Shown: positions 3,436 to 62,139 of the stretch, one piece after another
Layout of the letters: every line of letters starts with the position of its first letter
Position numbering within the stretch: the stretch's first letter is position 1
Assembly (NCBI RefSeq): GCF_018736065.1
Contig: NZ_CP076130.1
Span: 72,001-136,000, forward strand
Source of the DNA: Flammeovirga kamogawensis
Lineage (GTDB): Bacteria > Bacteroidota > Bacteroidia > Cytophagales > Flammeovirgaceae
Direction of reading: 5' to 3'
Length of the DNA: 64,000 bases
Notes under the pieces: model-generated
Databases searched by the model: none
Told to the model about the DNA's origin: nothing
Seen by the model: only the letters and a program-made list of their open reading frames with translations
Translations under genes and position numbers: made by a program

Positions 3436-5655
3436 TTAGCGACCAAGCTCCAGTTGGTTTTTGATTAAATTAAAATATTTACCTTGAGTATTTACTAGGC
3501 TATTATGATTGCCTGTTTCAACTATTTCTCCATTATCAATAACTAAAATTTTATCAGCATTTTTTACAGTGGATAATCTATGTGCAACAATAATTACTGT
3601 TTTATTTACAAAAAAATGCTGTAGATTATCATGAATCTTTTTCTCATTTGCAGCATCTAATGCTGATGTTGCCTCATCTAAAAATAAAATTTCTGGATTT
3701 TTATAAATAGCTCTTGCTAATAATAATCGTTGTTTTTGTCCTCCACTTAATTGAATTCCTGTATTTCCAATTTTAGTATTATATCCCATTGGTAATGCTG
3801 AAATAAAATCATCTATGCAAGCCATCTTAACAGCAAAATCAAGTTGTTTTTTATTTTCTTTTTTTTCTGAAAAAATTATATTTTCCTTTATAGTTCCACT
3901 AAAAACATGCCCATCTTGGAGAACTATCCCAGTATGTTTTCGCCAAGAATCTGCATTGTATTCATTTAAGGGTTGTTTGTTAATTTCAATCCTTCCATCA
4001 TTAGGAACATAGTAAGCTAATAATAGTTTTAATAAAGTTGTTTTTCCACATCCTGAAGCTCCAACAATAGCTGTTATATTGTTTTTTTTAATTATTATAT
4101 TTATATTTTTTAAAACAAAAGGATTGAAATTTCCAGGATATTTAAAATTTAAATTAGTTAATACTATATCTTCAATTTCATGCTTTGAAATGTCTTTTTT
4201 ACTATCATTATCTTCTTCTTCTGTTCTATAAACTTCATCAATGCGTTTATTGGCAATATCTGTATCTTGTGTATCTCTGATAAAATTTACTATATTTTTT
4301 ACAGGTCTTGATAATTGTCCTAAAATATATGAAATACTTAATAATGTACCCAATGTCATATTTTGATTTATTATAAGAAAAGCACAGACTCCAATAACAA
4401 TCATTTCAGCAAGTTTTGAAATAAAGTCTACACCAATTAGTTGATTTATGTTAAGAATTAGAGACCTTAATTCTATACTATTTAAACTATCTTGAATTTT
4501 TACTATACTCTTGATAATAAACTTTTGAGCACTGTTAACCTTTATTTCAGGCATATGCATGACAAATTCATATAATTTATTTTTATAATGAGCTTGCTTT
4601 AAAAAAAGTGCATATTCTAAGATTTTTCTTTTCTCTAAAAAAAAAGTGACCCAAAAAACTATAGCAATTGATAAGATAAAATAAATACAAAAAATATATA
4701 GATTAAAATATAATAAAATTGAACCGAAGATTACAATATTCATTACAGTAAAAATAAAATCTATTCCTTTCCAAGTTAGATAGGATTGTATTTTATTTTG
4801 ATCTTCTAAACGTTGTAATGTTTCTGTATTTAGCCTTGTATCAAAATAATTTATTGGTAATTTCATTAATTTATAAAGCAATTTTTTCTTTAAAAGAATG
4901 CTTAAATTAAAATTTACCTTTGATAAAATATATTGACTATAAACATCTGAAATGAATCCAGATATAAATAAAATAAATTGACCGAGTAAAAGATAGAAAA
5001 CTATATTCATATCCTTAGAAATAATACCCTTATCTATAATATACTGGAAGATAAATGGAATACACCAATTTGTAGATAATGCTATTAATGTGAAAAATAA
5101 TACAAGTAAATATTTTTTCTTTTTTCTTTTTACATATGCAATAGCATCTTTGAAAAATAATGAATTGAAAAGAGAATAACTTTTCAATTCATTGGAATTT
5201 ACTTTTTTCTTTTCAAATTCTTCATTAGGTTCAAAATAGATTCCTATTCCTTTTTCATTATCACCTTTCCATTCTTGAATAAAACTTTCTTGATCTAGTT
5301 TTATTTTCCCATATGCTGGATCAGCTAGAAAGTAAGTTGTCTTCTTACCCTTCAATTTAATTTTTTCAAGAACAACAAAATGATCTTGTTTCCAAAATAA
5401 GATAATGGGTTCTTCAAAGTCTTTAAGGTCATCAACAGTTAATTTCAGAGGTAATGAATTTAATCCTATTTTTTTAGATACTTTTAGAATGTCTTGTAAT
5501 GAAACTCCTATTCTAGAGAATTCAAAAAAATGTTTGATATAAACAAGATCACAATTATTTCCATAAAAATTCACTATCATTGCTAAGCACGCAGCAGCAC
5601 AATCAGTACTTTGTAATTGATGGAAAAATTTTAAATTTCGACTATTAGTTACCAT
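3436..5655 (-). CDS. C39-peptidase-containing ABC transporter (peptide processing and export), RiPP cluster 1
   Basis: A 739-residue bifunctional exporter. The N-terminal C39 peptidase has the catalytic triad C19 (STDCAAACLAMI), H92 (QDHFVVL) and D112 (LADPAYG). This family cuts leader peptides after double glycine. A membrane domain (about 180-460, several hydrophobic helices) is followed by an ATPase domain with Walker A GASGCGKTT, signature LSGGQKQR and Walker B ILFLDEATSALD. Its start overlaps the end of the radical SAM gene by 11 bases, so the two are translationally coupled. The substrate is inferred to be the 63-residue precursor upstream. No HlyD-type membrane-fusion protein accompanies it in the window. 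Confidence 0.93.
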   Translation of the reverse strand: MVTNSRNLKFFHQLQSTDCAAACLAMIVNFYGNNCDLVYIKHFFEFSRIGVSLQDILKVSKKIGLNSLPLKLTVDDLKDFEEPIILFWKQDHFVVLEKIKLKGKKTTYFLADPAYGKIKLDQESFIQEWKGDNEKGIGIYFEPNEEFEKKKVNSNELKSYSLFNSLFFKDAIAYVKRKKKKYLLVLFFTLIALSTNWCIPFIFQYIIDKGIISKDMNIVFYLLLGQFILFISGFISDVYSQYILSKVNFNLSILLKKKLLYKLMKLPINYFDTRLNTETLQRLEDQNKIQSYLTWKGIDFIFTVMNIVIFGSILLYFNLYIFCIYFILSIAIVFWVTFFLEKRKILEYALFLKQAHYKNKLYEFVMHMPEIKVNSAQKFIIKSIVKIQDSLNSIELRSLILNINQLIGVDFISKLAEMIVIGVCAFLIINQNMTLGTLLSISYILGQLSRPVKNIVNFIRDTQDTDIANKRIDEVYRTEEEDNDSKKDISKHEIEDIVLTNLNFKYPGNFNPFVLKNINIIIKKNNITAIVGASGCGKTTLLKLLLAYYVPNDGRIEINKQPLNEYNADSWRKHTGIVLQDGHVFSGTIKENIIFSEKKENKKQLDFAVKMACIDDFISALPMGYNTKIGNTGIQLSGGQKQRLLLARAIYKNPEILFLDEATSALDAANEKKIHDNLQHFFVNKTVIIVAHRLSTVKNADKILVIDNGEIVETGNHNSLVNTQGKYFNLIKNQLELGR

Positions 5656-6955
5656 CTAATATTTCATTTATTTTATTGTATATTATTTTGTTTTTTTCTT
5701 CAATATCACCGAAATAGACACAATACTCTTCACCACTTTCAATATGCTCTATTGCATGTTGAGAACAGCCACCATTACAAAGTGGTAGTATTTTACATTC
5801 TAGACAGGGTTTATTTTTAAATTTTGCATTCATTCTCCTTTCAAGTGAATTATTTTCCCAAATTAATATTCCATCTTTACTTAAATAACCTTCTCTATTT
5901 TGTGTAACAAAGTCTCTGGCAGTACACTTAAAAAGATCACCATTATAATTAATTGTCGCACTATTTATTTTGTCAGCATAGCAAGAGTTCTTTACATTAT
6001 CAACGGAATATGACGATAATGCCTTAAACCCATTTTGATGTATAATAGACATGTTTTTATCAACTGTTTTAGAGATATTATCGTTTTGGTCATCTTGCCA
6101 CACTCTATGAAAATCGAAAAGTAATCTTTTTCTCTTAAAATTTGGTAGAGATGAAAAGTCTTCTATTATCTTAAAACAATTATTTATATTATCTGCTGTA
6201 TAATTTATTCTAGCTCTTACTGAAAAATTATCATGTTCGAGAAGATTATGGATATTAGAAATTATTTCATTATAACTTCCTTTTGTTTTTGAGACATATC
6301 TTACTTTATTATGTTCTTCTCCATAACCATCAAGAGTTATCTGTAATGATATAAATAAACCTTTTTGAATAAAATATTTAATAAATTTTCTATTTATTAA
6401 ATAACCATTAGTTGTAAACGATATGTTTTGTGATTTCTTATATTCAATACACTTTTCAACTAAATAATCAATAAGTGGAATAACACTCTGATAAAAATAT
6501 AAGAGAGGTTCACCACCAAAAAAAGATAGCGTAATGTGTTTTAATTTTTCCTTTTTTAATAAATTATCAATTAATTTTTTAATAGAATCAATAATATTAA
6601 AACCTAATTTTGAATCATTTATGTGAGACTCATAACAATACCAACATTTAAAATTACAATTCATTGTTGGATTTATAGTTAAAACAAAGTTTTCTTCTGT
6701 ATTATCTATTTTATATGATAGGTCTTTTACTTTTTGAAGTTCATCTAATTCATCCTCTATTATAAATTCTTCTTCGATTAAATAATTATAAAACGATGGG
6801 TGAAAGTCTTTTAACTTCGTAATCCCTTCATTTTGAGCTGAAATTAATAATTCTTTCAAGTCATGTTCAAGAAATAAAACTTTATTTGTGAAAGAATTAT
6901 ATAACGAGTATTTATCTTCAAAAGGTAAAATTGAATTGTAGGTGCTAATTTTCAT
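5645..6955 (-). CDS. Radical SAM/SPASM peptide maturase
   Basis: A 436-residue enzyme. The radical SAM cluster motif CNFKCWYC (C100, C104, C107) binds the 4Fe-4S cluster that cleaves S-adenosylmethionine, and SFFGGEPLL is the usual following glycine-rich block. The C-terminal SPASM domain is complete by pattern: C-x13-G-x4-C ending DLFKC, then C-x2-C-x5-C-x3-C (CLECKILPLCNGGC) and a last C in EEYCVYF, for auxiliary iron-sulfur clusters. Such maturases install thioether or C-C crosslinks in ribosomal peptides. The N-terminal about 80 residues may hold a peptide-recognition (RRE-like) fold, but I cannot confirm it. It sits between the precursor and the exporter in one transcription direction. 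Confidence 0.93.
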   Translation of the reverse strand: MKISTYNSILPFEDKYSLYNSFTNKVLFLEHDLKELLISAQNEGITKLKDFHPSFYNYLIEEEFIIEDELDELQKVKDLSYKIDNTEENFVLTINPTMNCNFKCWYCYESHINDSKLGFNIIDSIKKLIDNLLKKEKLKHITLSFFGGEPLLYFYQSVIPLIDYLVEKCIEYKKSQNISFTTNGYLINRKFIKYFIQKGLFISLQITLDGYGEEHNKVRYVSKTKGSYNEIISNIHNLLEHDNFSVRARINYTADNINNCFKIIEDFSSLPNFKRKRLLFDFHRVWQDDQNDNISKTVDKNMSIIHQNGFKALSSYSVDNVKNSCYADKINSATINYNGDLFKCTARDFVTQNREGYLSKDGILIWENNSLERRMNAKFKNKPCLECKILPLCNGGCSQHAIEHIESGEEYCVYFGDIEEKNKIIYNKINEILDGN

Positions 6956-7272
6956 AGTTTGTATAGGATTTATTAATTATAGTAACCATTTAGAAAAAAA
7001 TGAAACTAAATAGTTACTTTTCAGTCAAATGGTATTGTAATACACTAACCCCACATTTGTAAATGTTTCATCTCCGGGGTCACTTTTGTTTGAAAAGCAA
7101 TAATAAAACCATCTTGCAACATACCATTATCTTCCGTTGACGGTTTATATTAATGCATAGAAATTGCTTTTTTTATTTTTCTTCTACCTCATCATTAGAA
7201 TTAGTTTTTATTATTGTGGTTAGGGAGTGACAAATATTATCTGTCACTTCCCAATATGTTTAAAGATTATTT
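6956..7272 (-). other. Gap between precursor and maturase genes
   Basis: No convincing gene is present. On the minus strand a 25-codon frame (MLQDGFIIAF start, ending in QMWG) lies within about 7045-7125; it looks like a decayed fragment and is not called. The main structure is the hairpin at 7223-7252. Confidence 0.5.
7223..7252 (-). promoter_or_regulatory. Hairpin directly after the RiPP precursor gene (attenuator or stabiliser)
   Basis: GGGAGTGACA (7223-7232) pairs with TGTCACTTCCC (7242-7252) through ten base pairs with one bulged base and a nine-base loop. It lies 20 bases past the precursor stop and before the maturase gene. There is no strong T tract, so partial termination or 3'-end protection is more likely than full termination. 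This would raise precursor mRNA above maturase mRNA. Confidence 0.6.
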
Positions 7273-7464
7273 TTAACTACCACAACCTTTAGTACAGTTA
7301 CCTCCCTGACAATTATTTGTCGAGGGACAATTTCCATTTACGTCAATATCTGGTATTTCTTTATCAGTGTTACCACCATAGACAATTGAATATCCACCAC
7401 TTAGGATATCCTTTTCATGAATTAGCATACTAATTTTCGAAAAGGATTTAATCTTCTTTCTCAT
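7273..7464 (-). CDS. RiPP precursor peptide, double-glycine leader, Cys-rich core
   Basis: A 63-residue peptide. The leader (1-24) is basic at its start and ends in LSGG, a typical C39 cleavage site; a second GG occurs at residues 30-31. The C-terminal core carries four cysteines, C46, C52, C57 and C61, with spacings of 5, 4 and 3 residues. It is directly upstream of the radical SAM/SPASM gene and C39 exporter. It resembles the 'GG-Bacteroidales' rSAM-modified precursor type (TIGR04149-like), from memory. The cysteines are likely thioether or disulfide positions. The activity of the product (antimicrobial, signal or metal binding) cannot be read from sequence. Confidence 0.85.
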   Translation of the reverse strand: MRKKIKSFSKISMLIHEKDILSGGYSIVYGGNTDKEIPDIDVNGNCPSTNNCQGGNCTKGCGS

Positions 7465-7599
7465 CTTCCTTATTTAGTATTTTGATTGAAAAATAGATAA
7501 TAGTTTTTAGTCATTAATCCTACTTCGGACTAACTTGCAAGTTTATTTTTTATTTAAGTAAGCATTAAGCTTAGTAATTATCTTTCGATATATAAGGAC

Positions 7600-9945
7600 T
7601 TAATAGGACCTATTAATTTCTTCTTTATTTTTTATTTGCCTATCACTCACTTTAACTTTTCCTCCTAAATTGATTTTAATAGTTAATTTTACATACCTAT
7701 TATCATAGAATCCATTTGTTTCTACAAAATTTCCATTTCTCTCTGATGTTGAATTAAAACTATACTCACGGAAAAGGTTATTTACATTAAGGACTAAAGT
7801 AATTTTATCATTTATTATTGCAGATAAATATAAATTTAAAATAGACCTTGCTTTATTATTTGTAAGGTCAAGCCCTACGTTAGGAAACACTTGTTGGTAA
7901 TTAAAACCTGTATTGATTTTCTCATTAAATTTATAATTAAAATACATATACAAGACTGAATAAAATCCATCTATTTCTTTTGGTGTAATAGGATATATTT
8001 TTGATTTTGACTTTTGGTAACCACCATAACCTCCATAGTATAATCTAATTTTATTAATATTATTAATGAATGTTTGACTTATACCAAACGTTTCAGTATC
8101 AGTATAATTTAATGGTTTAATTAATTGATTTACATTATCATTATCGATAATAACAACTCCTCCATACATATCTTTAGTTGATTGAAAAAACAAGGATGTC
8201 CGACTGTATTTTTTTAATTTATAATTCAATTCTAAATTATGAGTGAATGATGGAGTAAGTGAAGGATTACCTTCCCAATAATAAAAAGGACTAGAATAAT
8301 ATCTAAAAGGGTTAAGGTTTGAAAAGCTTGGTCTATTAATTCTTCGATTATAAGAAAATGAAAAATTATTATTATTGTTTAGTCGATAGCTTAAATAAAA
8401 ACTAGGGAAGAGTTCAGTATAATTATACGTATTCAATAATTTAGTAGATTTACTATCAGCTTCAATTTGAGTGTTTTCTATACGAAGACCGAGTTTAAAA
8501 GAGAATTTATTTGATAACTCTTTTTCACCACTTATAAACAATGATTGTGTATTCTCATCATAATTGTACTGATCATTTTGTATAAAACCAACGTCATAAA
8601 TATCTGAAAATAAATAGTTATCTATTTTTGAAAAGGATACTCTTCCTCCATAATTTAAATCAATAAATTTAGTAGGGTGATTCATATCTAAATTTACAGA
8701 ATAATTATTAATACTAAGATCCCCTGAGTTTATATTCTCTTGATCAGATAATAAGTTGTTATTATTATAAACTATAAAATTTCGTTCACTTTCAGTATTA
8801 TAATTAAAATAATCAATATCTATATTTAACTCTTTTCCAAGAGTATCAATGGTATATTTTAAATGATAATTTAATGCATTATTACGCTTTTTTTTGTTTG
8901 AAATCCCTTTTGTAACAACCTCTCTACTGCTAATTGAATTATTAATAACCGAATTATCTATATCAGAAACATTTGGTTTATTTAATGATCCATTATATTG
9001 AATACCAGTAGTTATTTTTTTATTCAAATCATAATCTAAGATAAAATGTCCTGATAAGTTATTTTTTTTATTGATCGACTCTGTATTAGAATTCCATATA
9101 TTTTCAGGATATATTACTTGTAAATATTCTTCTCCTTTATATTTGCCAAACGAATAATTTACACCTGTTCCAATTGATAAATTATTTTTTTTGAAATAAT
9201 AATTAACTGAATTTATGCTTTGAGCATAAATACCTTGTCTATATGAAGATGAAATTATAGTTCTCCATTGATCTTTTCTTGGTTTCTTAAGGATAATATT
9301 AATAAGACCACTATTACCTTCTGCACTATATTTAGCGGGAGGACTGGTTATAATTTCAATACTTTTTATTTGATCACTTTGTAAACCTTGTAAATAATCA
9401 ATTATTTGGTTAGGAGACATTTGTAGAATCTTTCCATTAACCATAACGCCTACTCCTTCGGCTTTACCAAGTATTGAAATTCTATTTTGATTAACCATTA
9501 GGCCAGGAGTAATCTCTAAAATGTTAAGACCATTAGCACCTGTAGCTAAGGCTGTCTGATCTATATTAAAAACATATCTATCTATTTTTTGTTCAATTAG
9601 ATCATCTTGATTTTTAATTGTAATGGCATCTAGTATTATGGAAGGATCAATAATTAACGGGCCTAAATCAATAGATGAATTAATATCAACTACTTTAGAA
9701 TAAAATTTTGTACCAAATTGATTTAACTCAAGGATATATTGTCCTTTTTCAACTTCCAAGCGAAACCTCCCTAAACTATCAGATCGAGTACCTACAATAA
9801 TATGAGAGCTATCATTCAATATATTTACATTAATATATTCAAGTGGTTCCTCATCTATCGAAAGAACCTTTCCTTCTATTGAAAAGAATTGAGCATGTAC
9901 ATTTATTGAAATTAGTAATATAAAGAATAGGTTAAATATCTTCAT
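7600..9945 (-). CDS. Outer-membrane plug/beta-barrel protein of RiPP cluster 1 (TonB-receptor-like)
   Basis: 781 residues. A signal peptide (1-18, ending NVHA) is followed by a CarboxypepD_reg-like domain (about 20-110), a plug-like region with LEITPGLMVNQN and GLINIILKKPR (about 125-225), then a long Tyr/Asn-rich barrel of the outer-membrane barrel family 3 kind. It runs in the same direction as the precursor and 135 bases upstream of it. Its role may be passage of the peptide or its ligand across the outer membrane. That is inference from position; it could equally be an unrelated receptor. Cluster 2 also contains a plug/barrel gene. Confidence 0.85.
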   Translation of the reverse strand: MKIFNLFFILLISINVHAQFFSIEGKVLSIDEEPLEYINVNILNDSSHIIVGTRSDSLGRFRLEVEKGQYILELNQFGTKFYSKVVDINSSIDLGPLIIDPSIILDAITIKNQDDLIEQKIDRYVFNIDQTALATGANGLNILEITPGLMVNQNRISILGKAEGVGVMVNGKILQMSPNQIIDYLQGLQSDQIKSIEIITSPPAKYSAEGNSGLINIILKKPRKDQWRTIISSSYRQGIYAQSINSVNYYFKKNNLSIGTGVNYSFGKYKGEEYLQVIYPENIWNSNTESINKKNNLSGHFILDYDLNKKITTGIQYNGSLNKPNVSDIDNSVINNSISSREVVTKGISNKKKRNNALNYHLKYTIDTLGKELNIDIDYFNYNTESERNFIVYNNNNLLSDQENINSGDLSINNYSVNLDMNHPTKFIDLNYGGRVSFSKIDNYLFSDIYDVGFIQNDQYNYDENTQSLFISGEKELSNKFSFKLGLRIENTQIEADSKSTKLLNTYNYTELFPSFYLSYRLNNNNNFSFSYNRRINRPSFSNLNPFRYYSSPFYYWEGNPSLTPSFTHNLELNYKLKKYSRTSLFFQSTKDMYGGVVIIDNDNVNQLIKPLNYTDTETFGISQTFINNINKIRLYYGGYGGYQKSKSKIYPITPKEIDGFYSVLYMYFNYKFNEKINTGFNYQQVFPNVGLDLTNNKARSILNLYLSAIINDKITLVLNVNNLFREYSFNSTSERNGNFVETNGFYDNRYVKLTIKINLGGKVKVSDRQIKNKEEINRSY

Positions 9946-29923: not shown

Positions 29924-32533
29924 CTAATGAATTTTGAACTTAATCTGTGCCATAAACTGTCTTGGTCTTAAATAGAAATAAGATAGGTTACTTTGAAAAG
30001 AATTTACAGTAGTTTGTGTGTATGAATGATGGTTTAGTAAATTTTGAGCCGTTAATATTAACCTTGTTTTCTTATTAAATTTATATTGATAAGATAAATC
30101 CATATATAAGAAATCATTATCAACAAAAGTATGAGTAATCCATTTATTGTTCCATTTAAATAAATGCTTCTTTTTAGAAAATTGAAGTTCTATTCCGAGT
30201 ATTCTTTGTCTCCAATTTACTTGATTCTGTTCTTTATAAATACTTTTAGAGATATATTCATTTAAATATGTAGAAATATTTAAGTGTCTGATTACAGGAA
30301 AGTCTAACATAACTCTCCAACTCAAATGACTATTAGTATTTTTATTCACTTCATTATTTAAAATAACATTTTCTACATTTTGACCAATTTCAATATTACC
30401 CTTTATCATTGTTTTTGTACTTAGAAGAAACCAATCAAAGTTGCTTTTTATTTTCTTATTTACTCCGTCATTATTATCTAAATATTTTGTTTGAATTAAT
30501 GTTACTCCATCCTCACTCACTTCATAAGATTGAATCCAATCTTTATTGGTAATATTATATTCATAGCTGGCATATAAATTTAGAGAAGCGGCTGTAAGTT
30601 CATAACTTATATTACTTCTAAATGAATGCTCTTTTGTTTTTAGAATAGGAGTGTTTTTTTGGTTAGCATTATTATAATTATTAATAATCAGACCAGAATA
30701 TATCTGAGGTAATTCAGTATAATTGTTGGAATATTTGTAGCTCCCTTCTAGTTTAACCCCTAATATATTGTACTTAATATAAGTTATGGGTTCAAATATT
30801 AATTGTTTTACGAAGCTTTCTTCATTTAATAAATGGTTAATTAGTTTTCGTGTCTGTAAGGATATATTAGGGTTTACGGTCAATGAGACGTTTTTATGTT
30901 TGTAATTTATTGCAGGATTAACCATTGGAATAATTGATAAATATTCCATTTTATTATTGTAAATATTATTCTCATCTAGTGAATTGATTGGAATTGATGA
31001 TGAAAGAGTTTTCCATTCATAGTTCAAACTAAATTTAGTATCAAAAGTTATACGCTTCCATTTTTTTATGATATTCGTGCTGATATAAAGTTTCACATTG
31101 TTTTGATGAGTTTTTTGATAAACTTTATTTAAGTTTCTAAATATTTCATTATCCATTAGGGGGCCTCCAATAAAATTTAACTGTTCTGGAGTATTAGTAT
31201 ATTCACTATACACATTAATTTTATAATATGTATTTCTTAATTTTAGCACTTTGCTAAATTTATTTCCAATACTATAAAAATATCTATCTGCAATTTGAGG
31301 GATATATTCTTCATTTTGGACAAACTCAGAATTTTCATTTCTATTCGATACCTTAAAATGAAAATCATTTTTAAAATAGTTCTTTTCAGAGTTATGCTCG
31401 TAAGTTAATCTTGTTTTTAAATATTTTGTTGTAAATGTAGAATGTTGAGAAAATGGAATTTCAATTGTATCATTCCTTACAAAATAAATGCTATTTGAAG
31501 ATAGATCTTGAAAACGTGAGTCATAATATGTATCTATATTTACTTTTAGATCACCTTTACCTAACCCAGTTAAGTAGTTAGTAGTAGCAGTATGGGTTCG
31601 ATGGTTATTGTATTCTGACTTATTGAACAAAGAACTTTCTAATGGAGTATTTCCAAGTAAAAATTGAGGATTACTTTCAATAAATCCAAAATCTAAATAA
31701 TCGAAAAGATTAACACTATTAAATGCACTTAATTCATCTTGTCCACTATTTGTTGAAGATAAAACATTGATTGTTTGATGTTTTTTATTAAATACCATAG
31801 GAGTTACTTTTCCATACCATATATTGGGTATACCTCCCCCTAATTCAATATTCCCAGTAACTGTTACTCCCTGTTTTAGAACAATATTTATAGCTGGATC
31901 AATGGAATGAACCACATCTTTTAGCATTTTTATTGGCTGATGATCCTTCAAAACTTCTACTGATACAACGGCATTTTTAGGTAAGTTTTTAGTTGTAATC
32001 GAATATTGGCTTCCCATTAGGTCTTTACCTTCAACATAGAACTTATTAATTGATCTACCTTGATAAGATATTTTTCCATCTTCATTTACTTCAATTCCTG
32101 GCATTCTTTTTAATACATCTTCTATTGACTCATCACCCTCTTTTTCAAAAGTAGCTACATTGTAATTTAAAGTATCTCCTTCTTCTGTAATTGGTTTAGC
32201 CTTAACTTCTAACTCTTTTAAGTAGTGGTTAGAAGCTGCTAATGTAAAATGAATAGGTTTAGATGAAACAGTAATTATTTTTTCTGTTAATGTATAACCT
32301 AACGATCTGCAAACAATCCGTATACTATCTTGACTCTCTTTTAAAGAAAACTTATAGTGTCCATCTTTATCAGATATTCCAAATCCTAAAATATTTTCGT
32401 TATAAGTTTTATAAGCAATTACAGAAGCCCCAATAATCGGTTTATTTTTTTCATTTGTTACTGTTCCATAAATAGTTTGAGAGTATAACCTATATGATTG
32501 TGTGATCATAATTAATATGAAAAGGAATTTCAT
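29924..32533 (-). CDS. Outer-membrane plug/beta-barrel protein of cluster 2 (TonB-receptor-like)
   Basis: 869 residues. A signal peptide is followed by a CarboxypepD_reg domain (IYGTVTNEKNKPIIGAS, about 20-105), then a plug region with EDVLKRMPGIEVNEDGKI and a long barrel. This architecture is the usual partner of GLPGLI proteins in Bacteroidota, and a GLPGLI protein is encoded upstream. It is the last gene of the cluster 2 operon. It may carry peptide or ligand across the outer membrane; the direction of transport cannot be told from sequence. Confidence 0.85.
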   Translation of the reverse strand: MKFLFILIMITQSYRLYSQTIYGTVTNEKNKPIIGASVIAYKTYNENILGFGISDKDGHYKFSLKESQDSIRIVCRSLGYTLTEKIITVSSKPIHFTLAASNHYLKELEVKAKPITEEGDTLNYNVATFEKEGDESIEDVLKRMPGIEVNEDGKISYQGRSINKFYVEGKDLMGSQYSITTKNLPKNAVVSVEVLKDHQPIKMLKDVVHSIDPAINIVLKQGVTVTGNIELGGGIPNIWYGKVTPMVFNKKHQTINVLSSTNSGQDELSAFNSVNLFDYLDFGFIESNPQFLLGNTPLESSLFNKSEYNNHRTHTATTNYLTGLGKGDLKVNIDTYYDSRFQDLSSNSIYFVRNDTIEIPFSQHSTFTTKYLKTRLTYEHNSEKNYFKNDFHFKVSNRNENSEFVQNEEYIPQIADRYFYSIGNKFSKVLKLRNTYYKINVYSEYTNTPEQLNFIGGPLMDNEIFRNLNKVYQKTHQNNVKLYISTNIIKKWKRITFDTKFSLNYEWKTLSSSIPINSLDENNIYNNKMEYLSIIPMVNPAINYKHKNVSLTVNPNISLQTRKLINHLLNEESFVKQLIFEPITYIKYNILGVKLEGSYKYSNNYTELPQIYSGLIINNYNNANQKNTPILKTKEHSFRSNISYELTAASLNLYASYEYNITNKDWIQSYEVSEDGVTLIQTKYLDNNDGVNKKIKSNFDWFLLSTKTMIKGNIEIGQNVENVILNNEVNKNTNSHLSWRVMLDFPVIRHLNISTYLNEYISKSIYKEQNQVNWRQRILGIELQFSKKKHLFKWNNKWITHTFVDNDFLYMDLSYQYKFNKKTRLILTAQNLLNHHSYTQTTVNSFQSNLSYFYLRPRQFMAQIKFKIH

Positions 32534-32632
32534 GCTTCAAAAATTTATAGTTCAAGAAGAATATTGATAAAAAAATAAAATGATATGAAACTAACTTTAG
32601 TACTTAGGCATCATGTTATAATTTTTATTCTG

Positions 32633-34747
32633 TTATACTAATTCAACTTCTTTAAACCTTTCTATTTTAATGACTTCGTCTGCAATTTCAAGTATTTTTC
32701 TCCTATGTGTAACTCCAATAATAATTCTATCTTGTTTTATCTTTTGAATTATCTCCATCATATATTCTTCTGTTTTATCATCAAGAGCTGAACTAGGTTC
32801 ATCTAATAACAAAACTTTGGAGTTTTTATAAATTGCTCTTGCAAAAGCAATTATTTGTCTTTGACCTCCTGATATATTTATTCCTTTTGTTTCTAATTTA
32901 GTGAAATAAGACATTGTATATTTCTCCAAGAGGTTATCAAAACCATATTTTTCACAAAAAGTTATAACATTAATAATTTCGTCTTTATTAAGGTTAAAAT
33001 TCATAGAGATATTTTCAGCAATTGTACCTTTAAAGATATAGGGCTCCTGATTGACTATAGCAACGCAACCTAACCATTGCTTGATATCAATTTTATCTAA
33101 TCTAACCTTATTATTTATTATAACATTAGAATCATATTTTTCATAATATTTTTGTATTACTTTTAATATTATCGATTTTCCAATTCCACTTTCTCCTATT
33201 AAAAAACTAACCTGTCCTTTCTTAAAATTAGCATTGATAGTATTAAATAAAATATCTGAACCAGGAAATGAATAGGTAAGGTTATGTAATGTAATTGTAT
33301 TAATTTCAGGTAGTTCTATTGTTTCATTAGATTTGTTATTTCTAAGATTAGCCAACTCAAATATTCTATCAAATGATACTTTCGCTTCACTTATTAAAAT
33401 ATTTATCATAGATAATTTAGACATAGAGTTTTGCAATCCTATCATAATTGAAATAATTGCCATTAAACCCCCAATACTTAATTTTTCTTTTTCTATTTCG
33501 TTCACTCCAAAATAGATAGTTAAAATATATGTTAGTAAGCTTACAAACCCTAAAAGTGAGGCTACAAGATATTGATATACAGATAATTTAAAGATCTTTT
33601 TTTGTGAAATTTTGAATTTATTAATTCCAAGATTAATAAATAAAAGCTCTTTAATATTTGATTTAACTTCTCTAATACCTTCAATTGTATTAATAAATTG
33701 ACTTTCAGATTGTGCAAATGATTGCATGCTGACTTTATTAAAGTTAATAAATCTATTGTATGTAAAATAACTAATAGTAATATACGCTAAAAAGCTACCG
33801 AAAAGTAAATATAGAATCTCAGGACAAATAGTATAGATGTAAAATGAAGAAACCCCAACAATAATTACATCAATTGTAAAATTACTTAATATTGATGTTA
33901 TTACTTTTTGGATTTTTTTTGTATCATTTAATCTTGAAATGACCTCGCCTGTTTCTCTAAAATCAAAATAACTAATAGGAAGCGAGATAATTTTTGAATA
34001 AAAAAATGAAATTAAACTATTATTAAAATCTTGAGTATGAATTGATGTTAGTCTATCTCTTAAATAGTTTAGTATCAATCTAAATGAAAGAAGTATTGCT
34101 AATAGAGTCAATGATTCTAATATTGTATCATACTCTTTTTTGGGTAATAGACTATCTATTAATTCTCTAATGAAAATGCTATTTGATAAGCTGATTATTG
34201 CTATTAATAACCCTAAAAAAGAAGAAACAAAAAGTATATTTAATTCACTTGAAATTAAACCTATTATCCATTTTAGTTTCTTTTTACTATTATCATTTTC
34301 AAACTGAAAATTACTATTAGGACTAACTTTTAATAAAATCCTTTCTTCCCATATTTTTAATAATTCATCTTCAGTATAATATTTTACACCATCTGAGGGA
34401 TCAGAAATAATAAACCTTTGTTTTTTTTTATCCCATCCAAAACATACAATATAATGTTCTCTATTTTTATCTATTATTACATATAAAATTGAAGGTTTAT
34501 CCGTTTCTTTTAATGATTTAATATCATATTCATAGCCTTCAGAATCAATACCTAAAGAATTTGATGCACAACTTAATCCATCCAAACTAGTTCCATATTC
34601 GTTTGTACCACTTAAGATTCTCAATTCTTCATATGAAATATTTTTACCACCATAAAATTTTATTATTGTTTTGAGACAAGCTATTCCACAATCACTAAAT
34701 CCATGTTGCTGAAAAAAAAAGTTACTATAGTAGTTTATATTTTTCAT
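32633..34747 (-). CDS. C39-peptidase-containing ABC transporter, cluster 2
   Basis: 704 residues. The N-terminal C39 peptidase has C20 (GFSDCGIACL), H98 (NREHYIV) and D116 (IISDPSDG). The membrane domain covers about 160-450. The ATPase has Walker A GESGIGKS, signature ISGGQRQ and Walker B VLLLDEPSSALD. It cleaves double-glycine leaders and exports the mature peptide across the inner membrane. Its start overlaps the stop of the thioredoxin-like gene by four bases (ATGA-type coupling). The substrate is inferred to be the 49-residue peptide encoded 1.3 kb upstream. It is only distantly similar to the cluster 1 exporter. Confidence 0.93.
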   Translation of the reverse strand: MKNINYYSNFFFQQHGFSDCGIACLKTIIKFYGGKNISYEELRILSGTNEYGTSLDGLSCASNSLGIDSEGYEYDIKSLKETDKPSILYVIIDKNREHYIVCFGWDKKKQRFIISDPSDGVKYYTEDELLKIWEERILLKVSPNSNFQFENDNSKKKLKWIIGLISSELNILFVSSFLGLLIAIISLSNSIFIRELIDSLLPKKEYDTILESLTLLAILLSFRLILNYLRDRLTSIHTQDFNNSLISFFYSKIISLPISYFDFRETGEVISRLNDTKKIQKVITSILSNFTIDVIIVGVSSFYIYTICPEILYLLFGSFLAYITISYFTYNRFINFNKVSMQSFAQSESQFINTIEGIREVKSNIKELLFINLGINKFKISQKKIFKLSVYQYLVASLLGFVSLLTYILTIYFGVNEIEKEKLSIGGLMAIISIMIGLQNSMSKLSMINILISEAKVSFDRIFELANLRNNKSNETIELPEINTITLHNLTYSFPGSDILFNTINANFKKGQVSFLIGESGIGKSIILKVIQKYYEKYDSNVIINNKVRLDKIDIKQWLGCVAIVNQEPYIFKGTIAENISMNFNLNKDEIINVITFCEKYGFDNLLEKYTMSYFTKLETKGINISGGQRQIIAFARAIYKNSKVLLLDEPSSALDDKTEEYMMEIIQKIKQDRIIIGVTHRRKILEIADEVIKIERFKEVELV

Positions 34748-35208
34748 TCTTTAAATTTTGATAAAAGTTTTTTCACAGGAGCCCACCCTAATTCCCTGTA
34801 AATACACTTATTATTCTCTATCACCCATGAGGTTGGTGTTTTTGAAGCTGGGAATGTTTGAAAGAATTCAAACTCGTCACATTTATAAATTTTTATATTG
34901 TTGACCTGAACTAAGTTTTCGCTTTTCATGAATTCTTTTAATACTTCAATATTTTCATCTGAAATAAGAATAAATGAAATATCTCTGAACTCTAATTCTG
35001 AATTATCTTTTATTTCTTTTATTTCAATTTGACAATAATGACAGGTTGTGTTAAAGAAAGTATATATAGTTTTGTCAGAGTTAAAATCATTTGATTTTGA
35101 GACCTGAATTAAGCTTAAACTATTTATGTTTTTTAAAAAATCACTTTCATTTTGTTGACAAGATGAGAGTGATAGTATTATAATAAAAATTCGAAAGTGC
35201 ATTCTCAC
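34744..35208 (-). CDS. Thioredoxin-like lipoprotein of cluster 2
   Basis: 154 residues. A lipoprotein signal peptide ends at LSLSSC (C17). The active-site motif CHYC (C56-C59) sits in TFFNTTCHYCQIEI, and SKTPTSWVI supplies the cis-proline region. This is a TlpA/AhpC-like periplasmic thiol oxidoreductase. Placed four bases into the C39 exporter gene, it is well placed to form or shuffle a disulfide in the exported two-cysteine peptide. That role is inference. Confidence 0.82.
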   Translation of the reverse strand: MRMHFRIFIIILSLSSCQQNESDFLKNINSLSLIQVSKSNDFNSDKTIYTFFNTTCHYCQIEIKEIKDNSELEFRDISFILISDENIEVLKEFMKSENLVQVNNIKIYKCDEFEFFQTFPASKTPTSWVIENNKCIYRELGWAPVKKLLSKFKE

Positions 35209-35213
35209 TATAT

Positions 35214-36014
35214 TTATAGTTCAATAGAATTAGTTAAAGAGGCTCTTATTAAAAGTTCTTCTCTTCTTTCTGGGCTATCATTATCAATATTTTGAATATG
35301 TCCAAAATATGATATTCTACCAGTATTAATTAAATTTTTATATTTTTCTTTTTCTTTTTGTATCCATTTACCAGGTTTTCTATATTTAAAATACCCAAAA
35401 CTTTGTACTATTTCTTCGTTAGAAATTTCTTTTCTTTTTGCTGTAAAAATATGGTCATTATTTTCATCATAAATTTCTAAAATTAAACCTGGTAATCCGT
35501 TAAAAACATATGGACCATCTGAAATAGGTATTTCAATGCTAAACCATGCAATGAATTTCCGGTTCCCATATTGACCTTCAGCTTTTACACATTCATAGCC
35601 TAATATTATTTTTTTATCCTTCTTTATTTCCCATTCAAAATTATAAGAAGGAGTTTTAAACTTTATTTTAGGTAAAGTATGATCAACAAATAAAGAATCA
35701 TGAATTTTATGAACTGTATAAACATGAACTTTAGACATTGTTCTACCTTTTGTATTAAATAAATTCAACCCATTTTTACTAGCTTCTCTTAAAATCTTAT
35801 TACTTTTGAATGCATTACTTGTCTGAGAAATGGAAGAGTTATTACCAATATATAAACTTATTAATTCGTTCACATATTGATCAAATCCTTTTTTAATTCG
35901 ATAAGAATAATCATATTCAATAAAAAATTTTGCAGTATCAATAGTAATAATTTGACTTAGTATTTCAGAATATTGAAATACAAGTAATACTATAATTAAT
36001 AATTTCTTTTTCAT
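35214..36014 (-). CDS. GLPGLI family protein
   Basis: 266 residues with a signal peptide (1-20, EILSQ). The family signature GLPGLI is present exactly at residues 173-178, followed by LEIYDENNDHIF. Length and layout are normal for the family (TIGR01200-like). The family's function is not known to me. It is regularly paired with plug/barrel receptors, as here. It lies five bases upstream of the thioredoxin-like gene. Confidence 0.9.
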   Translation of the reverse strand: MKKKLLIIVLLVFQYSEILSQIITIDTAKFFIEYDYSYRIKKGFDQYVNELISLYIGNNSSISQTSNAFKSNKILREASKNGLNLFNTKGRTMSKVHVYTVHKIHDSLFVDHTLPKIKFKTPSYNFEWEIKKDKKIILGYECVKAEGQYGNRKFIAWFSIEIPISDGPYVFNGLPGLILEIYDENNDHIFTAKRKEISNEEIVQSFGYFKYRKPGKWIQKEKEKYKNLINTGRISYFGHIQNIDNDSPERREELLIRASLTNSIEL

Positions 36015-36026
36015 ATCTATTGATCT

Positions 36027-36059
36027 AAATAGTAATGAGCAGCAAGCTCATTACTATTT
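36027..36059 (-). promoter_or_regulatory. Perfect 14-bp hairpin directly after the cluster 2 precursor gene
   Basis: AAATAGTAATGAGC (36027-36040) and GCTCATTACTATTT (36046-36059) pair perfectly around a five-base loop. It lies 16 bases past the stop of the 49-residue peptide and 12 bases before the GLPGLI start. It could partially terminate or protect the 3' end, raising precursor mRNA. The same placement is seen in cluster 1. Confidence 0.75.
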
Positions 36060-36075
36060 GACTTATAATTATGTT

Positions 36076-36225
36076 CTAACAAACATAATAGACATCTGAT
36101 TTAATTATTCTCCAAGCTTGATCATCATGACCAGTGTTGAAAAGATGGTCAATGATATCAATACAGCTTTCGTGAATTAGACCTCCTCTTACTTTTTTCA
36201 TTTGTTTAGTTTTTAACTTTTTCAT
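36076..36225 (-). CDS. Double-glycine precursor peptide, 49 residues, two-cysteine core
   Basis: Read directly from the minus strand: ATG at 36225, TAG at 36076-36078. The leader MKKLKTKQMKKVRGG is basic and ends in GG, a C39 peptidase site. The core is 34 residues, begins LIHESC and ends DVYYVC, with cysteines at core positions 6 and 34 and a Trp at 23. It is encoded upstream of the GLPGLI, thioredoxin-like and C39 exporter genes on the same strand. No modifying radical SAM or lanthionine enzyme is in this operon, so a single disulfide ring is the simplest mature form. The leader is short compared with most double-glycine leaders. Confidence 0.78.
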   Translation of the reverse strand: MKKLKTKQMKKVRGGLIHESCIDIIDHLFNTGHDDQAWRIIKSDVYYVC

Positions 36226-36307
36226 GGTTATTTTAGGGTTAATTAGTTATTGCTACTCTTTTATGGATTTTCGCATACTCCAGTTCTATCTAGATATTTT
36301 TTTAAGG

Positions 36308-36943
36308 CTAAGTGTATAACTTTAATACAAAAGTTAGAAAGGTCATTCCTATTAAATAGAATGGTGTATAACCAATTATAACGGCATAAATACTTTGTTT
36401 TAACGATATATTAGAATGTGATTTTTGTATATAATATGATAAACTTAGAATAAATAATATGTAAAAAAAGTTGATTGCTTTACCCCAGTTTATAAAAATA
36501 GGAGGTAAAGAAATTTCTTTCAGATAATAACTCATACTCCAAGGAGAGAACGAATAAAAATCACCTATAAATACGAGTTTTTCAATCCAAATAAACCATA
36601 CTATTTTTAACGCTGTTGGTATTAATAATATGTATTGGCATAATAGAACATATTTAAATAATTTAGAAAAATATATTTTTAGTTTTAGAATTATATATCC
36701 AAAAAGCCCCATAATTGATAATAATAAAGTTTTAAAAATTATATTAAATGGGGTTTTTAAATACTCTAAATATTCATTATTTACTTTATTTTTTAAATAA
36801 TTATTTACATTTTCTTCTCCTAATAAATATTCATAACTATCTATAAATATTTTATCTTTTAATAAGTAATTATTTGATATATATGATAAAATTATTTCTA
36901 TAATACATAGAAATAAAAAGGAATATAATAAATTGTATTTCAT
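36308..36943 (-). CDS. Integral membrane protein, first gene of cluster 2
   Basis: 211 residues with about five hydrophobic helices (near 5-22, 68-88, 97-118, 155-173 and 185-208). It resembles small Yip1-like or immunity-type membrane proteins only in layout; no family motif is seen. It lies 82 bases upstream of the precursor gene, in the same direction. A role as immunity protein or transporter accessory is possible from position only. Confidence 0.65.
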   Translation of the reverse strand: MKYNLLYSFLFLCIIEIILSYISNNYLLKDKIFIDSYEYLLGEENVNNYLKNKVNNEYLEYLKTPFNIIFKTLLLSIMGLFGYIILKLKIYFSKLFKYVLLCQYILLIPTALKIVWFIWIEKLVFIGDFYSFSPWSMSYYLKEISLPPIFINWGKAINFFYILFILSLSYYIQKSHSNISLKQSIYAVIIGYTPFYLIGMTFLTFVLKLYT

Positions 36944-60207: not shown

Positions 60208-62139
60208 ATGAAAAGGAGAGACTTTTTTAAGAAATCATCTGGGGCAGTAATAGCCTCTAGTTTATTACCACTAACAGGCAACGCAAAAGAGAAAAAGAAC
60301 ATTACTTTTGATGTAGGAGATAGAGATAAAGACAACTGGTTTCAAGTTGGTGAAGGGAAGAAAGGAGTACCCAATAGAAATAAAACAATCTCTTGTGATG
60401 TAGTAGTAGTTGGAGCAGGAATAGCAGGAATCTGTGCTGCGGTGGCATCAGCTAGAACAGGAGCAAAGACAATTCTTTTGAGTGATCGTTCTGTGATTGG
60501 AGGGAATGCGTCTTCAGAAATTCGAGTAACCGTTAATGGGGTTCAGAATTTGAAAAATGACCATAAAGTAGAAAGAGAAACAGGCATTATAGAGGAGTTT
60601 CAGATAGAGAATTGGTATTATAATCCTCAAGAATCCTACCCTATGTGGGACCATGTAATTTACGATTATTGTACGCGCCAAGAAAACCTAACTGTAATGG
60701 TTAATACTCAGGCCATTGATGCAACTACTGACAAAGATAAAATAACGTCAATCTTGTGCTGGCAAGGGTCTACAGAAACTTATTATTCCATTAATGCTAA
60801 AATGTTTTGTGACTGTTCTGGAGATGGTTTAATGGCTGCACAAGCAGGAGCAGAATACAGAACTGGAAGAGAAGCAAGAACTGAGTTTGGTGAATCTTTT
60901 GCTCCTGAAAAAGCAGACGGTTGGCAAATGGGAGCATCTGTTATGATGATTACAAAAGATATGGGGCGCCCAGTAAAATATATTCCTCCAACATTTGCAA
61001 TAAAGTACGAAGCAGAGAAAATGCATGACCGTAAAATTAAGCAAATGAAAGAGGGGTTCTGGTGGGTAGAACTAGGTAGTGATTTTGATATTGTTGCAGA
61101 TCAAGAAGAAAATAGACATAAATTATTGGGGTACATGCATGGTGTTTGGGACTATGTCAAAAACTCTGGAAACTATCCAGAATCCGAAAATATTGCATTA
61201 GATTGGGTAGGTTCAGTACCAGGCAGAAGAGAGTCACGTAGGTTTATGGGAGACTACCTTCTTAATCAAAATGATTTACAAAATTACAAGCATTTTCCAG
61301 ATGCAGTTGCCTATGGAGGTTGGTCGTTAGATGAACATTGCCCAGGTGGAATAGAAAGCCCAGATCAGCGTCCAAGTTATTTCCATGCAAAATTTAATAA
61401 ACTATACGAAGTACCCTTTAGAAGTTTATATTCTAAGAACATTAGTAATCTGCTTTTTGCCGGCAGGAATGTAAGTGTTACCCACATGGCACTGTCTTCT
61501 ACAAGAATTCAAGCAACATGTGGTTTAATGGGACAAGCTTCTGGAACTGCAGCAGCATTGTGCGTTAAAAACAATTGGACACCTCGGAAAATTGCGAACA
61601 ATAAGATTGATGTATTGCAGGAGCAGTTACTTCGTGATGATGTTTTTATTCCTAACAGACCTGCAAAAGATCCTAAAGATTTACTACGTAACGCAAATAC
61701 AATCATTGCCTCCTCTACCAACTCTGGTAATGTGAAATTATTAACCAATGGAATTTCTAGGAAAGAAATTGGAAAAGTAAACCATTGGGAATCAAAAGGA
61801 ATTAATGCATATTTACAAATGGAATGGGAAAAGCCTATTTATCTATCTAGCGTTGAATTTAAAGGAGATACCAACCTTCAGCGTAAGATTATGATGCATA
61901 AAAACCCTGAAAAAAATAAAGGACAAATCATCGGAATTCCTCCAGAATTAGTGAAATCTGCAATAGTAGAAGTTAGAAAAAATGGAGTTTGGCAAACTGT
62001 AAGCTCAGTGGATAACAATATTACTCGACTAGTTAAAATGCAATTTGATCAAGTAAAAACTACTGGTGTTAGATTACGTCTTAAAGAAACTTGGGGCAAA
62101 GAAAATATTACATTATTTGAAGTTCGTTGTTACGCATAA
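60208..62139 (+). CDS. Tat-exported FAD-dependent oxidoreductase with C-terminal discoidin-like domain
   Basis: 643 residues. The N-terminus KRRDFFKKSSG is a twin-arginine motif followed by a hydrophobic stretch, so the protein is probably exported folded with its flavin. VVVVGAGIAGICAAVA (GAGIAG at 69-74) is the dinucleotide-binding fold, followed by a second conserved block GGNASSEIRV. This fits the FAD_oxidored family. Residues about 510-643 look like a beta-sandwich (F5/8-type or CBM32-like). The family often accompanies sulfatases in marine glycan loci, which suggests oxidation of a sugar or fragment. Its stop abuts the next ATG (TAAATG). Confidence 0.85.
   Translation: MKRRDFFKKSSGAVIASSLLPLTGNAKEKKNITFDVGDRDKDNWFQVGEGKKGVPNRNKTISCDVVVVGAGIAGICAAVASARTGAKTILLSDRSVIGGNASSEIRVTVNGVQNLKNDHKVERETGIIEEFQIENWYYNPQESYPMWDHVIYDYCTRQENLTVMVNTQAIDATTDKDKITSILCWQGSTETYYSINAKMFCDCSGDGLMAAQAGAEYRTGREARTEFGESFAPEKADGWQMGASVMMITKDMGRPVKYIPPTFAIKYEAEKMHDRKIKQMKEGFWWVELGSDFDIVADQEENRHKLLGYMHGVWDYVKNSGNYPESENIALDWVGSVPGRRESRRFMGDYLLNQNDLQNYKHFPDAVAYGGWSLDEHCPGGIESPDQRPSYFHAKFNKLYEVPFRSLYSKNISNLLFAGRNVSVTHMALSSTRIQATCGLMGQASGTAAALCVKNNWTPRKIANNKIDVLQEQLLRDDVFIPNRPAKDPKDLLRNANTIIASSTNSGNVKLLTNGISRKEIGKVNHWESKGINAYLQMEWEKPIYLSSVEFKGDTNLQRKIMMHKNPEKNKGQIIGIPPELVKSAIVEVRKNGVWQTVSSVDNNITRLVKMQFDQVKTTGVRLRLKETWGKENITLFEVRCYA

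Follow-up and report, generated by a model that had tools for sequence, protein, structure and literature searches.

Bacteroidetocins, the proposed class IIf (Coyne et al, 2019; PMC6671954), are encoded in regions where the gene for a protein with five transmembrane (TM) helices is followed by those for a double-glycine (GG) peptide, a thiol oxidoreductase and a C39 ABC protein, the thiol oxidoreductase gene being present in most of the loci. The peptides were described as having a leader of 15-16 amino acids ending in GG and at least two cysteines, with four in bacteroidetocins A and B (PMC6671954). Deletion of the TM or thiol oxidoreductase genes attenuated toxin activity in Bacteroides, and neither gene gave immunity (PMC6671954). 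The target of bacteroidetocins is BamA (PMC8546649).

We analysed a stretch of 64,000 nucleotides (the window) from the 6.97 Mb genome of Flammeovirga kamogawensis, in which a first-pass annotation made from the letters alone had described a small peptide gene beside a C39 exporter. Reading of the open reading frames reproduced that description exactly in coordinates and sequence: a 49-codon frame at 36225-36076 on the minus strand encodes a 15-residue leader ending in GG, followed by a core of 34 residues whose two cysteines are core residues 6 and 34. The residues that are canonical in GG leaders are present (L −12, M −7, V −4 and GG −2/−1). Under a scoring matrix built from 71 leaders, all from loci outside Flammeovirga, the leader reached 14.6 bits; the runner-up among the window's 103 GG sites, counted over six frames, reached 1.3, and none of 20 shuffles of the window contained a leader scoring as high. 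The comparison with related genomes that had been proposed for this frame showed that it and its GG are retained at 96% identity in F. pectinis, one of eight other Flammeovirga genomes, with no convincing copy in the remaining seven.

The frame stands second in an operon on the minus strand, which we infer from strand and spacing to run as a single unit from the membrane protein to the barrel protein (Table 1). Pfam and NCBIfam bore out the C39 exporter, the CHYC thioredoxin-like lipoprotein, the GLPGLI protein and the plug/barrel protein that had been named as its neighbours. The C39 domain of the exporter matches PF03412 (E 4e-27), with the active-site Q, C, H and D all present in invariant columns. 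What had been overlooked were the 211-residue membrane protein upstream and the 15-bp stem-loop after the peptide gene. The membrane protein matched nothing in Pfam or NCBIfam and no fold in the PDB; its AlphaFold2 model has a pLDDT of 80. Searches of ORFs, Pfam and NCBIfam found no modifying enzyme, neither radical SAM nor lanthipeptide maturase, within 29924-36943, in agreement with the first-pass annotation; a radical SAM product and a lanthipeptide were both rejected. A scan for sigma-70 promoters was uninformative, giving fewer matches than shuffled sequence, and the sole TAnnTTTG motif upstream of the operon is about 770 bp distant.

Table 1. Features of the peptide operon and of a second C39 cluster, in window positions.
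Feature	Position	Strand	Basis or remark
Membrane protein, 211 aa, five long helices, first operon gene	36308-36943	(-)	ORF, homologues, AlphaFold2
GG leader, 15 aa, MKKLKTKQMKKVRGG	36181-36225	(-)	ORF and leader scoring
Core peptide, 34 aa, LIHESCIDIIDHLFNTGHDDQAWRIIKSDVYYVC	36079-36180	(-)	ORF; stop codon 36076-36078
Inverted repeat, 15 bp, 5-nt loop, RNA stem-loop	36026-36060	(-)	Between peptide stop and GLPGLI start
GLPGLI family protein (TIGR01200 / PF09697), 266 aa, signal peptide	35214-36014	(-)	Pfam, NCBIfam
Thioredoxin-like lipoprotein, CHYC, lipobox LSSC, GTG start, 154 aa	34744-35208	(-)	ORF, Pfam
C39 peptidase-ABC exporter, 704 aa	32633-34747	(-)	Pfam, NCBIfam, active-site alignment
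Outer-membrane barrel protein, CarboxypepD_reg and Plug domains, 869 aa	29924-32533	(-)	Pfam
OMP_b-brl_3 barrel of second C39 cluster	7600-9945	(-)	
63-aa Cys-rich GG peptide of second C39 cluster	7273-7464	(-)	
Radical SAM/SPASM-type maturase of second C39 cluster	5645-6955	(-)	Nearest NCBIfam TIGR04463, below cut-off
C39 exporter of second C39 cluster	3436-5655	(-)	

The first-pass annotation could match this gene set to no named class. That view did not hold, because the overlooked TM gene completes the bacteroidetocin set in its published order (TM protein, peptide, thioredoxin-like protein, C39 ABC; PMC6671954); the class becomes recognisable only when the membrane protein at 36308-36943 is taken in. 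The window also has the 15-residue GG leader, the two cysteines, the thiol oxidoreductase and the ABC protein with an N-terminal C39 domain. We consider it likely that the operon holds the structural gene and export genes for an unmodified class II peptide of bacteroidetocin type, an assignment that goes by gene set, order and published description and bears only indirectly on kinship by descent. Like the bacteroidetocins, the predicted system combines the four-gene core in the same order with a cysteine-paired peptide lacking modification, has no obvious immunity gene and appears horizontally mobile. It differs in its added GLPGLI and outer-membrane barrel genes and in its producer, a marine member of the Cytophagales. 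Whereas cores of 42-48 residues are found in bacteroidetocins A and B and close relatives, with four cysteines in the A/B group, the core here is acidic and has 34 residues with two, and it therefore cannot be filed in the A/B peptide group. With class II GG bacteriocins such as Pfam Bacteriocin_IIc and the microcin V family the operon shares the GG leader and C39 exporter; it differs from these in having a TM protein and a thioredoxin and no HlyD or TolC partner.

The window TM protein was compared with the five-TM proteins of Bacteroides by description only, and it is homologous to TM proteins at two loci (L140, L141) where the TM gene lies upstream and the ABC gene downstream of a peptide that fits the bacteroidetocin description, with a 15-residue leader, Lys after GG and a 45-residue core containing four cysteines. 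Plasmid searches with a bacteroidetocin-like peptide, the membrane protein and an exporter found no Bacteroidales locus of the TM family, the peptide finding no relative among plasmids, nor did searches at order level, centred on two genomes from outside the class that belong to small orders, reveal a Bacteroidales bacteroidetocin locus. The modest identity of the window exporter to its siblings (32-38%) counts against the bacteroidetocin-type reading, as do the shortness and negative charge of the core, its two cysteines in place of four and its lack of similarity to named peptides. In its favour is the composition and conservation of the DNA: GC content is 20-30% in the operon and 32-34% in flanking genes, and the operon is 96-99% identical between the host and F. 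pectinis, compared with 93.5% for the whole syntenic block of 12.6 kb. Because the identity of the operon exceeds that of the block and its GC is low, it looks to have moved horizontally, and recently, as horizontally moved bacteriocin loci do. Downstream, similarity between the two species stops about 140 bp past the operon.

To place the operon more widely, homologues of the membrane protein were collected; they occur in 105 of the 390 genomes covered for the order and in 31 of 395 in a sample of the phylum. Of 77 loci with a TM gene, 63 have a same-strand thioredoxin or redoxin gene downstream and 61 have a C39-ABC gene there, several of the loci that lack one or the other being contig ends or broken frames. 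A class-wide search with the window exporter gave as best relatives almost exclusively exporters of the TM module (E < 1e-118), followed by a sharp fall to 1e-85 and below, and a contig search using the exporter alignment returned at least nine loci with a TM gene. Carriers among the matches listed include Flavobacterium frigoris, Psychroflexus lacisalsi, Subsaximicrobium wynnwilliamsii and Pedobacter gandavensis, together with metagenome-assembled genomes of Allomuricauda, Urechidicola and Chitinophaga. The GG-peptide leaders at TM loci share the consensus MKKLNLNQMENIQGG. In F. pectinis itself, plasmid NZ_CP034564.1 carries a sibling 51-residue peptide, annotated as a hypothetical protein, with the same position relative to GLPGLI, a leader of the same type and a pair of terminal cysteines. 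At two loci (L136, L137) the TM gene is followed by C39-like proteins of 454-479 residues that begin with a C39-like motif (QTNANNCGMACI) and are only weakly similar to the exporter; they may represent a split or different exporter type. Another locus (L187, 3951-4806) has a row of several four-cysteine GG peptides, two of them with the motif CLPFICPPGQ in common, upstream of one TM-thioredoxin-C39 module. TM-like matches at L143/L144 were weak and look spurious, and were set aside.

The sibling cores are hypervariable and frequently several per locus, yet two cysteines are the rule: 63 of 80 unique cores have exactly two and 12 have four. In 53 of the 63 the pair spans more than 55% of the core, with one cysteine near each end; among GG candidates from 20 C39 loci lacking the TM gene, a small sample, 1 of 10 had two cysteines. 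The CxxC thioredoxin-like protein is likewise a conserved part of the module. Since two spaced cysteines are the family rule and the module supplies a CxxC partner, closure by a Cys6-Cys34 disulfide is probable; the earlier proposal of an exported, disulfide-closed peptide that is no radical SAM product gains support, the disulfide itself as a likelihood. The window peptide matched no Pfam family, Bacteriocin_IIc included, and its core showed no similarity to any named peptide. With a net charge of −4, a pI of 4.8 and near-neutral hydropathy, the core is unlike the Gly/Ala-rich majority of its siblings and resembles a minority of hydrophilic two-cysteine cores, such as that of the F. pectinis plasmid peptide and those at L082, L084 and L086. 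AlphaFold2, run on the single precursor sequence, placed helices at residues 19-31 and 34-42 with moderate confidence (mean pLDDT 71), and it is reasonable to model the core as a helical hairpin that a Cys6-Cys34 disulfide closes.

The stem-loop directly after the peptide stop has a z-score of −5.6. The F. pectinis plasmid peptide is followed in the same place, before GLPGLI, by a stem-loop of unrelated sequence (z −5.7), and across the family a structure with z < −3 follows 46 of the 80 peptide genes, compared with 13 of the 234 genes for TM proteins, thioredoxins and exporters at these loci. No Rfam RNA was matched. Some structures in the family will be plain operon terminators; the one in the window is probably a 3′ stabiliser or attenuator, because no T run accompanies it in the direction of the operon.

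Other GLPGLI genes of the genome have no GG peptide alongside, so GLPGLI alone is no marker of such peptides. The F. pectinis plasmid copy of the module also carries a GLPGLI gene and a barrel gene, its barrel being 60% identical to that of the window; a locus elsewhere in the host genome (L184), apart from any exporter, has the pair with a barrel 62% identical. Barrels at least 59% identical are present in all four Flammeovirga genomes with the TM/C39 module (G000, G002, G003 and G004) and in none of the five without it, a pattern with an exact chance of 1/126 if the genomes are independent. Judged by the identities of a single gene (GH2), G002 and G008 fit no simple explanation by clade, but nine genomes are few. 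Each close barrel adjoins or lies near a GLPGLI gene, even when apart from an exporter. We lean slightly towards a role of the pair in outer-membrane exit or protection. More specifically, and tentatively, it may be dedicated to the exit of short, acidic, single-disulfide helical-hairpin peptides or to self-protection against them, for example as a decoy or resistant target.

Several further peptide systems were seen in the window and the genus. A second C39 cluster with its own outer-membrane barrel lies at 3436-9945 of the window on the minus strand (Table 1). Elsewhere in the host genome (L024, 6386-13495), a type I system combines a C39 exporter with HlyD-like and TolC-like genes; its two GG peptides contain no cysteine, unlike those of the membrane-protein modules. 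LanC-like proteins and UDP-glycosyltransferases are encoded beside TM-thioredoxin-C39 genes at L017 (10212-11999 and 8854-10209), L020 (10445-13370) and NZ_CP034564.1 (48498-51369), and the two-cysteine peptides of these loci are possibly glycosylated or otherwise modified. The window operon shares with such variants (C2 of its own genome and NZ_CP034564.1) the TM-thioredoxin-C39 core and two-cysteine GG peptides, and with the NZ_CP034564.1 copy the peptide-GLPGLI pair and the related barrel, but has no LanC-like or glycosyltransferase gene. The plasmid with the sibling peptide module also encodes an SdpA family antimicrobial peptide system protein (60402-60932).

The variants in the genus and the radical SAM/C39 cluster in the same window raise the question of whether the peptide is a RiPP modified by LanC-like/glycosyltransferase or radical SAM enzymes encoded elsewhere, rather than a plain disulfide peptide. 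We consider this improbable: the operon has none of these genes, the core offers only three Ser/Thr residues, the LanC-like genes have no dehydratase beside them, the radical SAM cluster comes with a peptide and exporter of its own, and at most sibling loci in the phylum the genes annotated, peptides aside, are TM, thioredoxin and C39 alone. Less credible still is a chance or decayed small ORF, a reading to which the shortness of the frame and its presence in one other sequenced species lend themselves. Because the leader so far outscores the other GG sites, as well as all shuffles, and the frame and GG are kept in F. pectinis, the peptide gene is very hard to attribute to chance, and its module context, the conserved stem-loop that follows it and the sibling peptide in the same slot on the F. 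pectinis plasmid argue in the same direction.

Of the rivals to a bacteriocin, a secreted signal deserves the most weight, although it too is unlikely. Pheromones, too, can have GG leaders; the best NCBIfam match of the leader, short of significance, is the induction factor EntF; the core is short and acidic; and a Plug-domain barrel of TonB type could take up a signal, so that the barrel/GLPGLI pair would serve perception or uptake. However, no histidine kinase or response regulator was found inside or adjoining the operon, and the hypervariability of the sibling cores, with often several per locus, is as expected for toxins. One sibling peptide (L061) scores 29.2 against the Pfam Bacteriocin_IIc cut-off of 27.1, and a toxin is the product of the most similar gene set that has been studied (PMC6671954).

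Under the bacteroidetocin-type reading, export and cleavage of the GG peptide are strongly supported predictions: the C39 domain of the exporter would cut after GG during passage across the inner membrane, as its intact catalytic set and the canonical leader suggest. Once the peptide is in the periplasm, Cys6 and Cys34 would be joined with the help of the membrane-anchored CxxC thioredoxin-like protein, giving an amphipathic 34-residue helical hairpin, and the five-helix membrane protein may act as a partner in export or maturation. Through the stem-loop, mRNA for the peptide would probably become more abundant than mRNA for the genes downstream. By analogy with the bacteroidetocins, the mature peptide would most likely act as a narrow-spectrum bacteriocin that kills relatives of the producer, plausibly by way of a protein in the outer membrane, just as BamA is the target of bacteroidetocins. 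The GLPGLI/barrel pair could be its partner at the outer membrane, an exit path or self-protection, as its co-occurrence with the module suggests.

What is known here, as far as gene content tells, is the bacteroidetocin-type module; what sets this instance apart is the short acidic core and the added GLPGLI and barrel pair. The inner-membrane TM-thioredoxin-C39 module is widespread in the Bacteroidota; its peptides have two cysteines as a rule, and their genes are often followed by a stem-loop. A profile of the TM protein, a family absent from Pfam and NCBIfam, could locate many easily overlooked peptides. Bacteroidetocins are toxins of the Bacteroidales without an identified outer-membrane exit or immunity, and the specific outer-membrane pair added in Flammeovirga is a testable candidate for this missing step.
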